The notes under the pieces are model-generated. The model saw nothing but the letters and a program-made list of their open reading frames with translations, was not told the origin of the DNA and did not search any database. Of a stretch of DNA of 31,936 nt, positions 13,151 through 30,061 are shown piece after piece. The DNA comes from a virus. Numbering within the stretch: the stretch's first letter is position 1; every line of letters starts with the position of its first letter. A program made the translations under genes and the position numbers. The DNA lies in IMG/VR virus record IMGVR_UViG_3300036985_000797, positions 1-31,936 of that record. One strand, given 5' to 3'.

Positions 13151-13438
13151 TTAGGAAGGAGTAACCGTAGTAGCGTTAGAGCCGTACCAAACAGAACCTG
13201 CGGTAGCGCCAGAAGCGGTGTAAATCACGCCAGTAGCGATGTCTACAACGGTTTTGCCAGTCACTTTGCCAGTGGTGTTGATAGCGTTTGCAATAGCGCC
13301 AAGGGCTGCAGCGGTAGCGGTGGGGAGAATAATGGTTCCTGTAACAGTGCCTGTAACATTGCCTGTGACGTTACCTGTGAAGTCGCCGATAAAGCCGTTT
13401 GCGGATGCTACTGGGCCATTAAAACTTGTGCGTGCCAT
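13151..13438 (-). CDS. head fibre/decoration-like protein (95 aa)
   Basis: It begins MARTSFNGPVASANGFIGDF, followed by TGNVTGNVTGTVTGTI, a short-period repeat typical of phage head fibres and beta-helical spikes. The C-terminus is Ala/Thr-rich (ATGVIYTASGATAGSVWYG). It is the first gene after the capsid terminator. The start has AAGGA six bases upstream, directly following an RNA region with pseudoknot potential. A surface head-fibre role is inferred. Confidence 0.82.
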   Translation of the reverse strand: MARTSFNGPVASANGFIGDFTGNVTGNVTGTVTGTIILPTATAAALGAIANAINTTGKVTGKTVVDIATGVIYTASGATAGSVWYGSNATTVTPS

Positions 13439-13449
13439 GATGTGTCCTT

Positions 13450-13505
13450 ACATGCAAGTTGGGGTGTTCTGTCTGCATGTCGTCAGCCGGGACTGTCAGA
13501 ACACC
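13450..13505 (-). promoter_or_regulatory. candidate H-type pseudoknot in mRNA leader
   Basis: In the minus-strand transcript a 9-bp stem (GGTGTTCTG 13505-13497 with CAGAACACC 13471-13463) interleaves with a 7-bp stem (ACATGCA 13480-13474 with TGCATGT 13456-13450). Loop lengths are 16, 2 and 6 nt. The last strand directly abuts the AAGGA Shine-Dalgarno (13449-13445) of the 13151-13438 gene. The complementarity is direct observation; folding and regulation are inference. Confidence 0.5.
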
Positions 13506-13535
13506 GGAAAGCCCGGATTGAAAGCAATATACACC

Positions 13536-13563
13536 AAAAGAAAAGGGGGCACAAGGCCCCCTT
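13536..13563 (-). terminator. rho-independent terminator after capsid gene, minus strand
   Basis: The minus strand reads AAGGGGGC-CTTGT-GCCCCCTT followed by TTCTTTT, a GC-rich stem with a U-tract 10 bases past the capsid gene's stop. It probably ends or trims the packaging/head transcript and sets high expression of the capsid gene. Confidence 0.85.
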
Positions 13564-13573
13564 CTCACTTTTA

Positions 13574-14485
13574 TCAGGTCGAACCTGAAGATCCAAACAT
13601 ACCGAGAGGATCAGACCAGCCGAAGCTATAACGCTCACGAGCCTTATAGCGAACGTTACCTGTGTCGAAGTCGCCGTCCATGCTGTTTTGCAGCGGTGTA
13701 CGAACGAAGTGCTTCAGACCGTTAGGCACGTCAGTGGTCAAGAACCAACCGTTTGTGTCTGTCAAGAAGTGATTGACAGTGTAACCTTCAGGGATTGCGC
13801 CCATTTGCTTCAACGCGTTGATATCGTTGTCAGCAGTAGCTACACGCAACTCAGTGTCCAACAGGCGCTTGGCCGTGAACATCAAAGCTGGAGGAACAAT
13901 CAACTTCTTAGGCTTAGCAGCAATCAGCAAACCACGCTCATCTGTCCAAGCAGCGATTTGAATAACGGCGGCTTCCAAGGAAGTCTCGTTCAAGTCAGCT
14001 TGTGTAGAAGGAGTGTTGCTGTTGACGCCACCAGAGATCAAGGGGTGAGCTGTGTTAAACAAAGACACGCCATCGCCACCGGGGTAGCTAGTGGAGAAGC
14101 CGTTGTTCAAGACTGCAGCAGCCTTAACTTGCTTGGTATAAGCCATAGCACGAGCCAATGACTTGGTGTAACGAGCAGACAAGCTGTCGTACAAGTTATC
14201 TTCAATCGCTTCTTCAGTGATTGAGAAACCCAAGGCGATGGTTTCGTGTGTGTATCGAGTTGACCATGCTTCTTGTGCATTGTCATAAGCGATGGCTGAG
14301 CCCTCGTTCTTGACAGGTGCGGCTGAGAAGCCAGAAAGCTTGGTCTCTTCTTCGAATGAACGCTCAGAGGTCTCTGTTTCGTAGATCTCTTTGTGCTCTT
14401 CGCCGTAGCGAGCATACTCCATACCGAACAAAGCGTTCAGACCCGGGAGCAACTCTTTCAGCAGTTGTGCGCGTGAAATAGCCAT
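13574..14485 (-). CDS. major capsid protein (303 aa)
   Basis: An HK97-fold-type capsid protein by pattern. N-terminal helices (LLKELLPGLNALFGMEYARYGEEHKEIYETETSERSFEEET) lead to the E-loop-like region with NEGSAIAYDNAQEAWSTRYTHETIALGFSITEEAIEDN. LARAMAYTKQVKAAAVLNNGF and GVSLFNTAHPLISGG, the latter as in Mu gpT-like capsid proteins, then TDERGLLIAAKPKKLIVPP complete the A-domain. The C-terminus contains FDTGNVRYKARERYSFGWSDPLGMFG. Length and position (after scaffold candidate and head protein, before a terminator) fit the main shell protein. No long N-terminal scaffolding delta domain is seen. Confidence 0.9.
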   Translation of the reverse strand: MAISRAQLLKELLPGLNALFGMEYARYGEEHKEIYETETSERSFEEETKLSGFSAAPVKNEGSAIAYDNAQEAWSTRYTHETIALGFSITEEAIEDNLYDSLSARYTKSLARAMAYTKQVKAAAVLNNGFSTSYPGGDGVSLFNTAHPLISGGVNSNTPSTQADLNETSLEAAVIQIAAWTDERGLLIAAKPKKLIVPPALMFTAKRLLDTELRVATADNDINALKQMGAIPEGYTVNHFLTDTNGWFLTTDVPNGLKHFVRTPLQNSMDGDFDTGNVRYKARERYSFGWSDPLGMFGSSGST

Positions 14486-24075: not shown

Positions 24076-24089
24076 CTAACAAATGTTAG
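24076..24089 (+). repeat. 14-bp repeat, exact consensus
   Basis: Exact CTAACAAATGTTAG, 60 bp after the promoter's -10 box and 9 bp upstream of the 24099 gene. Its ATG (24083) opens a different frame of about 43 codons that I do not consider a gene. Confidence 0.9.
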
Positions 24090-28788: not shown

Positions 28789-28802
28789 GTAACAAATGTT
28801 AG
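28789..28802 (+). repeat. 14-bp repeat copy at vWA gene start, GTAACAAATGTTAG
   Basis: One mismatch (first base) to consensus. Its ATG (28796) opens the vWA/metallopeptidase gene; GAAAGG precedes it. Confidence 0.9.
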
Positions 28803-30061
28803 AAGAACGTAAGGTACAGAAGGCGAAGATTACATTGATGCGTGACCCGAGGTTTGCCCTTTGGTCTGGCATCTTGATGGTTGGTCGTACGAGTGTAGTG
28901 GATAACATCCCAACTGCATGCACCAATGGGCGTGACGAGAAGTATGGTCGCAAGTTCGTGGCTATGCTCAAAGAGCCTGAGTTGAATTTCGTGGTACTCC
29001 ATGAGAATCTACACAAGGCTTTCCGTCACCTGACTACATGGCGTAAGTTACATGACGAGAACCACTCGCTGGCAAATGCGGCTTGTGACTATGTGATTAA
29101 CCTTAAGCTCAAAGACCTCGATCCTAGCGAGCGTGTCATTGCGATGCCACGTTGGGCAGATGGTGAGTTGAAGGGTAAGCCGATGGGCTTGGTTGACGAG
29201 AAGTATCGTGGACTCAATGCCAAGCAAGTGTTCGATCTACTCAAAGATGAGCAGAAGGGCGGGGGCGGCGGAGGCGGTGACGACGAAGGCGACGGCGCAG
29301 GAAAGGGTTCCGGTGGTACAGGTACGAGCCAAGGTCAAGGCAATGGCGGAGGGTTCGATGACCACGATTGGGATGGTGCGAAGGAGATGACCGAGGAGGA
29401 GAAGAAGGTTCTCGAGCGTGAGATCGATCAGGCTATTCGCCAAGGTGTAATGGCGCATCAGAAAATAGCGGGAACTGGTGGTGGTGATCTCGATCGGGAC
29501 TTGCTTGAGTTGCTCGAACCAAAGGTCGACTGGCGTGAAATGTTGCGTGAGTTCGTGAAGTCTACGTGTAGCGCAAAAGATACATCGTCATGGCGTAGGG
29601 TGAATCGTAGGTTCTTGTCTATGGGTACGTACATGCCTAGCTTGATCGGTGAGAAGGTTGGTCACATGGTTATTGCCGTAGACACATCGGGTTCGGTTGG
29701 GCAAGAAGAGTTGTCGGGCTTCCTAACAGAAGTTAAGGGTATCGCAGAAGAAGTAAAGCCTAGCCAAGTGGACTTGATCTATTGGGATAGCCGAGTAGCC
29801 GGACACGAAGAGTACACCGAAGGTATGGTGGGCGACATTATCAATTCCACTAAGCCTAGGGGCGGTGGAGGTACGTCACCCTCTTGTGTATCAGAGTATC
29901 TGAAAGAGAAACGTATCGTGCCTGAGTGCGTCATCATGCTCACCGATGGGTATGTTGGTAGCGATTGGGGCAGGGATTGGACTGCGCCTGTACTGTGGGC
30001 GATCGTAGGAGGAAACGATTGTGTTGCAGACAATGGCAAAACGATTCTTGTCAAGGATTAA
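28796..30061 (+). CDS. vWA protein with N-terminal HExxH metallopeptidase-like motif (421 aa)
   Basis: The N-terminal domain has VLHENLHKAFRH, an HExxH zinc-protease signature (HENLH, residues 69-73), as in DUF2201-type putative metallopeptidases. A Gly/Asp-rich linker (about 155-190) follows. The C-terminal von Willebrand A domain has the MIDAS elements DTSGS (296-300), a Thr in GGGGTSP (360) and LTDGYVG (D384). Proteins of this build accompany MoxR-like ATPases. It probably serves as the partner that selects targets. Whether the protease motif is active cannot be told. The start is in the 14-bp repeat. Confidence 0.92.
   Translation: MLEERKVQKAKITLMRDPRFALWSGILMVGRTSVVDNIPTACTNGRDEKYGRKFVAMLKEPELNFVVLHENLHKAFRHLTTWRKLHDENHSLANAACDYVINLKLKDLDPSERVIAMPRWADGELKGKPMGLVDEKYRGLNAKQVFDLLKDEQKGGGGGGGDDEGDGAGKGSGGTGTSQGQGNGGGFDDHDWDGAKEMTEEEKKVLEREIDQAIRQGVMAHQKIAGTGGGDLDRDLLELLEPKVDWREMLREFVKSTCSAKDTSSWRRVNRRFLSMGTYMPSLIGEKVGHMVIAVDTSGSVGQEELSGFLTEVKGIAEEVKPSQVDLIYWDSRVAGHEEYTEGMVGDIINSTKPRGGGGTSPSCVSEYLKEKRIVPECVIMLTDGYVGSDWGRDWTAPVLWAIVGGNDCVADNGKTILVKD

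Follow-up and report, generated by a model that had tools for sequence, protein, structure and literature searches.

The window, that is, the whole stretch of DNA that was analysed, is a virus record of 31,936 bases (IMGVR_UViG_3300036985_000797). On its minus strand, the major capsid protein gene is followed by an intrinsic terminator, and a non-coding gap of 135 bp (13439-13573) separates the capsid stop codon from the next gene, which codes for a short head protein.

13574..14485, minus strand: major capsid protein gene (PF25209, phrog_371)
13540..13566, minus strand: intrinsic terminator after the capsid gene (11-bp stem, 5-nt loop, T-run)
13151..13438, minus strand: downstream gene, coding for a 95-residue fibre-like head protein with an N-terminus of the MAxTTFxGP type

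The 95-residue product corresponds to no Pfam family. Its AlphaFold model (mean pLDDT 89.5) resembles fibre-type phage proteins in BFVD, with the best match to an unnamed phage protein (E = 3.5e-8); it also matches a phage pectate-lyase-type protein in the same collection (E = 1.1e-5), and no PDB match was obtained at E <= 0.001. Elsewhere in the window, at 28796-30061 (+), the opposite strand encodes a DUF2201 metallopeptidase-like and VWA-like protein.

In the gap, downstream of the capsid terminator (13566-13540), the earlier note had described a possible H-type RNA pseudoknot ending at a ribosome binding site. The two stems that it described are present on the minus strand: GGTGTTCTG (13505-13497) and CAGAACACC (13471-13463) form a first stem of 9 Watson-Crick bp, ACATGCA (13480-13474) and TGCATGT (13456-13450) a second one of 7 bp, the linker of the third loop has the claimed 6 nt (CCAACT), and the 3' strand of the second stem is directly followed by AAGGA (13449-13445). 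On the sequence of the window alone, such a knot is unremarkable: of 200 dinucleotide-shuffled windows, 34% contain an H-type pseudoknot of at least 9+7 bp, and when folded without knots the leader gains no stability over shuffled sequences (z = +1.10). A second 9+7-bp H-type knot, probably a chance occurrence, is seen by sequence near 24079 (-). The significance of the element comes from its relatives.

The earlier note had missed two additional helices, A (13516-13512 with 13491-13487) and D (13495-13493 with 13486-13484), as well as a -10-like TATATT box. The parts of the leader RNA, called helices A to D hereafter, are listed with the evidence for each of them.

13526..13531, minus strand: -10-like box TATATT; transcription would start near 13519-13517
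13512..13516, minus strand: helix A, 5' strand, CCGGG (z 10.4 for own over swapped partners, 78 leaders)
13497..13505, minus strand: helix B, 5' strand, stem 1 of the earlier note, GGTGTTCTG (10/10 alignment pairs changed on both sides; z 29.6)
13493..13495, minus strand: helix D, 5' strand, CAG (middle pair found as A-U, U-A, C-G and G-C)
13487..13491, minus strand: helix A, 3' strand, CCCGG, within the loop of D (partner swapping)
13484..13486, minus strand: helix D, 3' strand, CTG (covariation in the alignment)
13474..13480, minus strand: helix C, 5' strand, stem 2 of the earlier note, ACATGCA (6/6 counted pairs changed on both sides; z 13.8)
13463..13471, minus strand: helix B, 3' strand, CAGAACACC (partner swapping and alignment)
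13450..13456, minus strand: helix C, 3' strand, TGCATGT, abutting the Shine-Dalgarno (SD) sequence (alignment and SD-distance count)
13445..13449, minus strand: SD sequence AAGGA (sequence)

From 5' to 3', the order of the element is A 5' strand, B 5' strand, an A, D 5' strand, A 3' strand, D 3' strand, AC, C 5' strand, GA, B 3' strand, C 3' strand, SD sequence and start codon. The fold consists of two pseudoknots that interlock around a core made of B and D, and it extends from near the likely promoter start to the SD sequence. In the first pseudoknot, stem B encloses hairpin D, the loop of which pairs with the upstream strand of A; in the second, the strand between D and the B 3' strand pairs with the strand at the SD sequence to form helix C. 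The pseudoknot of the earlier note is retained, but not the H-type architecture by itself, as hairpin D lies inside B and its loop pairs upstream. We consider it near-certain that the structure of this leader RNA is real. Our best explanation, which we hold to be probable, takes the element as the conserved 5' leader, about 75 nt long and encoded on the minus strand, of the head-fibre/cement mRNA. Of the side features, a minimal AUG-UAA start-stop (13453-13448, minus strand) overlaps helix C and the SD sequence. An AUG-UAA/UGA pair overlapping the C 3' strand or the SD sequence is present in 145/261 leaders, but it is not regarded as essential because only 29/77 non-redundant ones have it.

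IMG/VR searches with the capsid and downstream proteins yielded 80 + 80 loci, the leaders of which follow the same plan with very different sequences. From matches to a model built from helices B and D only (R1) and from pattern scans, we gathered 341 elements (264 unique, 262 anchored and 78 below 80% identity), those too close to contig ends being dropped. A MAFFT alignment (A1) comprises 57 of 79 distinct leaders, eight chance matches having been removed by hand beforehand. Both sides have changed at 10/10 pairs of helix B (9-10 bp long), at 6/6 counted pairs of helix C and at one of the three pairs of helix D, the remaining two of which never vary. The covariation score of A1, 0.719, falls to 0.225 after shuffling and does not exceed 0.154 after sliding. 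The earlier note had named covariation among homologous leaders as a check to perform; compensatory changes are present in both of its stems, and the simple 9-bp hairpin that it had kept as an alternative was rejected because helix C also covaries.

Because A1 loses the register of helix A, this helix was judged by partner swapping and in the pelagiphage alignment A2 described below. Across the 78 leaders below 80% identity, the comparison of own with swapped partners gave z-scores of 10.4 for A, 29.6 for B, 13.8 for C and 10.4 for D. Few single leaders beat 95% of their own swaps (13/78 for A, 15/78 for C and 3/78 for D) because many leaders have identical helix sequences, and the group z-scores carry the point. 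Helix A occurs as CCGGG/CCCGG, CTAGG/CCTAG, CTGGG/CCCAG, CCAAG/CTTGG, CTCGG/CCGAG and GGAAG/CTTCC, among other forms. In helix B, G-U cells are far more frequent than A-C cells (178 versus 13 in 261 leaders), and the fold therefore belongs to the mRNA strand.

We also scored a permissive version of the joint architecture. A mere 9-bp hairpin flanked by accidental pairing, or a wholly accidental structure, would agree with the ordinary frequency of 9+7-bp knots in the window alone and with the finding of the joint architecture in 56/1,000 shuffles of the window's leader. This explanation is hardly credible given that covariation is seen separately in C, A and D and that the joint architecture is found in 64/78 leaders versus 87/1,560 shuffles. 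The corresponding scan is not a detector by itself because 17 places in the window score 24 or more.

The leaders share a common core, namely an A before D, AC after D and GA before the B 3' strand, which amounts to five unpaired near-invariant nucleotides. The anchoring rule demanded an A both before and after D; at the positions free of this rule, the C is found in 53/54, the G in 52/54 and the A in 53/54 leaders. This small invariant core argues for a role of shape or protein binding, and it would be unlike a metabolite pocket because only five unpaired core nucleotides are near-invariant. SAM-II and preQ1 riboswitches are compact pseudoknots with a 3' strand at or beside the SD sequence, and the element resembles them in this respect. 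Unlike them, it has no conserved pocket and no Rfam match, and it precedes virion genes. A metabolite riboswitch of either of these types would share the compact knot ending at the SD sequence, but it appears improbable, as few unpaired nucleotides are conserved, the regulated genes encode virion proteins rather than metabolic functions, Rfam 15 gave no match at the gathering cutoff in the window or in 18 relative loci, and a lax cmscan search of three leaders returned no riboswitch family and nothing relevant.

Nested pseudoknots could also evoke a self-cleaving ribozyme with an HDV-like double pseudoknot, and HDV-like theta ribozymes reportedly exist in phages. In HDV, P1 and P2 form a nested pseudoknot, with the P3 and P4 hairpins. 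Here, the strand order is A5-B5-D5-A3-D3-C5-B3-C3, with A pairing into the loop of D, no HDV family is found among the lax Rfam matches, and the helix sequences vary freely, all of which makes a ribozyme very improbable.

The genetic environment of the element is conserved, with the major capsid gene on one side and a short head-fibre/cement-like gene on the other. A search by RNA pattern alone gave 201 elements; 162 were counted as having 1,200 nt or more upstream, and 160 of these have a capsid homologue there; the two apparently capsid-less loci (L248 and L320) proved to be index artefacts, with the element at the contig edge. The products encoded downstream of 261 leaders start with an N-terminus of the MAxTTFxGP type (233), STTQSIW (12), GFATHLGP (10) or others (6). 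In phage DSL-LC04, the subject of PMC10611076, the gene downstream of the element is annotated 'cement protein'. Some relatives have an extra gene after the capsid gene, and the element is still found directly before its own gene, with promoter-like sequence. In six loci (L011, L023, L029, L030, L038 and L072), the inserted gene codes for the N-terminus ..TNLPKTR.EA.ATGA.YYFTGEPCK.GHIAPRKTKGAC.EC; it looks mobile, of the homing type, and the element stays before the decoration gene where the contig is long enough. A tRNA suspected in one locus (L001) was not confirmed by ARAGORN.

R1 matches were obtained at 72/80 capsid loci and 64/80 downstream-protein loci, at 24/80 pelagiphage-type loci (E <= 1) and at 34/80 roseophage-type loci (E <= 1; 20 of them also at E <= 0.001). 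On ten named-phage regions and the window, the model matched the window, HTVC023P and DSL-LC04, and weakly HTVC027P (E = 1). For the pelagiphage-type leaders, alignment A2 (n = 34) brings together 33 of 47 distinct leaders from 80 loci and that of phage 023Pt_psg01, recognised by eye. In A2, 98.5% of the cells are paired, both sides have changed at 14/23 pairs, including all nine B pairs, and the covariation score is 0.318 versus 0.121 shuffled; helix A reads ACTATAC/GTATAGT, helix B is variable, and helix C is CCTAG/CTAGG, within the SD sequence.

The roseophage-type set (80 loci) divides into a full and a minimal form. In the full form (A4, 10 leaders), 98.4% of the cells are paired and only 2/19 pairs have changed on both sides; this weaker covariation was counted against our best explanation. 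The minimal form (A5, 26 leaders) is devoid of A and C and has a short B stem, the 3' strand of which reaches the SD sequence. It keeps hairpin D and the same GAC/GAC/GAC-like core, with 4/8 pairs changed on both sides and the outermost pair unpaired in 16/26 leaders. Hundreds of related phages that live in water carry this fold, kept by matching mutations, before the same gene.

Ten of 14 whole records have an R1 match at E <= 1, with about one copy per phage. One contig (G002) has two matches, at ends each bearing a capsid gene, and is probably chimeric, and a second match in DSL-LC04 (E = 0.2) looks like coding sequence. The type I core pattern was found in one contig only of the genome_contigs collection, a metagenome bin, and two patterns were each found in at least 120 stretches of viral contigs, which identifies the element as a phage element.

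Upstream of the element, a -10-like hexamer (at least 5/6 positions) recurs at an almost constant distance, lying at offsets 38-42 in 30/76 leaders, and the best single offset holds 11 leaders versus at most 4 in shuffles. The window has no good -35 sequence and a promoter scan reports none here; the -35 is weak in many leaders. We can only infer a transcription start near the A 5' strand, because the -35 is weak and the scan finds no promoter. At the other end of the element, helix C abuts the SD sequence in 168 of 261 leaders and overlaps it in 17; a distance of 1-6 nt separates the two in 75 leaders, and a longer one in 1. In all 34 aligned leaders of pelagiphages, the CTAGG/TTAGG that it pairs lies within the SD sequence. 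SD-to-start spacings are mostly 5-8 nt, and in most of the 261 leaders the start codon lies 7-16 nt after the C 3' strand. A conserved helix covering or abutting the SD sequence, as in an SD-proximal translational-control leader, is thus present in 185/261 leaders, with another 75 within 1-6 nt. Since helix C stops short of the SD sequence in 76/261 leaders, blocking of the ribosome is not necessary in all of them.

The element is most likely a cis-acting translational-control leader, and judging from the sequences a control function is probable. In this model, the mRNA would start just before the A 5' strand, the leader would fold during synthesis and helix C would cover or crowd the SD sequence, so that translation of the decoration protein would depend on the opening or remodelling of the fold. 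Its probable purpose would be to match the decoration protein to the capsid supply. It might act via a protein common to these phages, such as the capsid protein or the host translation machinery, rather than via the variable downstream product. As the proteins encoded behind the RNA are diverse, we favour a factor that these phages share (capsid protein, host ribosome or ribosomal protein) over the product itself; the inference is weak, because most products also have conserved N-termini. We estimate it to be reasonably likely that, as a whole, an SD-tied leader fold governs translation of the decoration protein.

The same leader could instead stabilise the mRNA or help initiation. The main rival that remains is a stabiliser or expression booster at the 5' end of the mRNA, in which the knotted end would block 5'-dependent decay and present the SD sequence without being a control element. 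That the element begins about where the promoter would start transcription, that the mRNA encodes a virion protein, needed in abundance, and that only five unpaired core positions are near-invariant, so that the fold itself seems important, are all consistent with this proposal. It needs no SD-tied helix, however, and C, or B in the minimal form, pairs at or beside the SD sequence across lineages; we consider it unlikely. The earlier note's reading as a translational RNA switch is strongly supported as regards a pseudoknotted RNA at the SD sequence, with its compensatory changes; for the switching itself, no ligand or trans-acting factor was identified and no alternative 'open' fold was established. 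An assembly-feedback switch, in which the leader would sense free capsid or decoration protein or the host translation state and open or close the SD sequence, is a tentative extension. If true, it would keep the decoration protein in step with the capsid, and freshwater phages and pelagiphages would have such a switch in common, with divergent and minimal forms of it in roseophages.

To our knowledge, there are few descriptions of dsDNA phages that regulate their structural genes through structured mRNA leaders, and T4 gene 32 is the best-known phage pseudoknot case. The element represents a family of phage leader RNAs that is new, although its kind is known. This strongly covarying family, absent from Rfam 15, is found upstream of a capsid-decoration gene in phages, those of Pelagibacter among them, and with its two interlocked pseudoknots at the SD sequence the finding is larger than the earlier note described. 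Control of the capsid-to-decoration ratio becomes directly testable, with the cultured HTVC023P and HTVC027P as experimental systems. No description of this leader RNA was found in the literature searched, subscription journals lying mostly outside it. In the accessible part of the HTVC027P transcriptome paper (PMC12753301), the decoration gene is not treated and 'promoter' and 'capsid' are absent from the main text; the accessible part of a pelagiphage paper (PMC9599517) mentions neither promoters nor pseudoknots. Further earlier work considered is PMC8040213.

According to a 2010 review (PMC3014915), the gene 32 leader of T4, T2 and RB69 harbours a pseudoknot bound by gp32, which represses its own translation. 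This H-type knot lies 67 nt upstream of the start codon and is followed by an unstructured A+U-rich stretch, and it was possibly the sole viral pseudoknot in translational autoregulation (PMC3014915). It resembles our element as a pseudoknot in a phage mRNA leader upstream of a translation start. Unlike the gene 32 leader, with two coaxial stems well upstream of an A+U-rich ribosome binding site, the element has helices in the order A-B-D-C, its two interlocked pseudoknots end at the SD sequence itself, and the gene encodes a head protein. The S4 operator of the Escherichia coli alpha-operon mRNA and the rpsO (S15) operators are pseudoknots at ribosome binding sites that regulate initiation, as reported in PMC10931766. 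They share with the element a complex mRNA pseudoknot covering or adjoining the ribosome binding site, but they belong to cellular ribosomal-protein genes and have other folds, and the element shows no Rfam similarity. Finally, the leader of Planktothrix phage Pag-Yong1 (L162:3895-4030) gave no R1 match; by eye, it has a 9-bp stem and an SD-complementary loop strand, and may represent an independent H-type knot.
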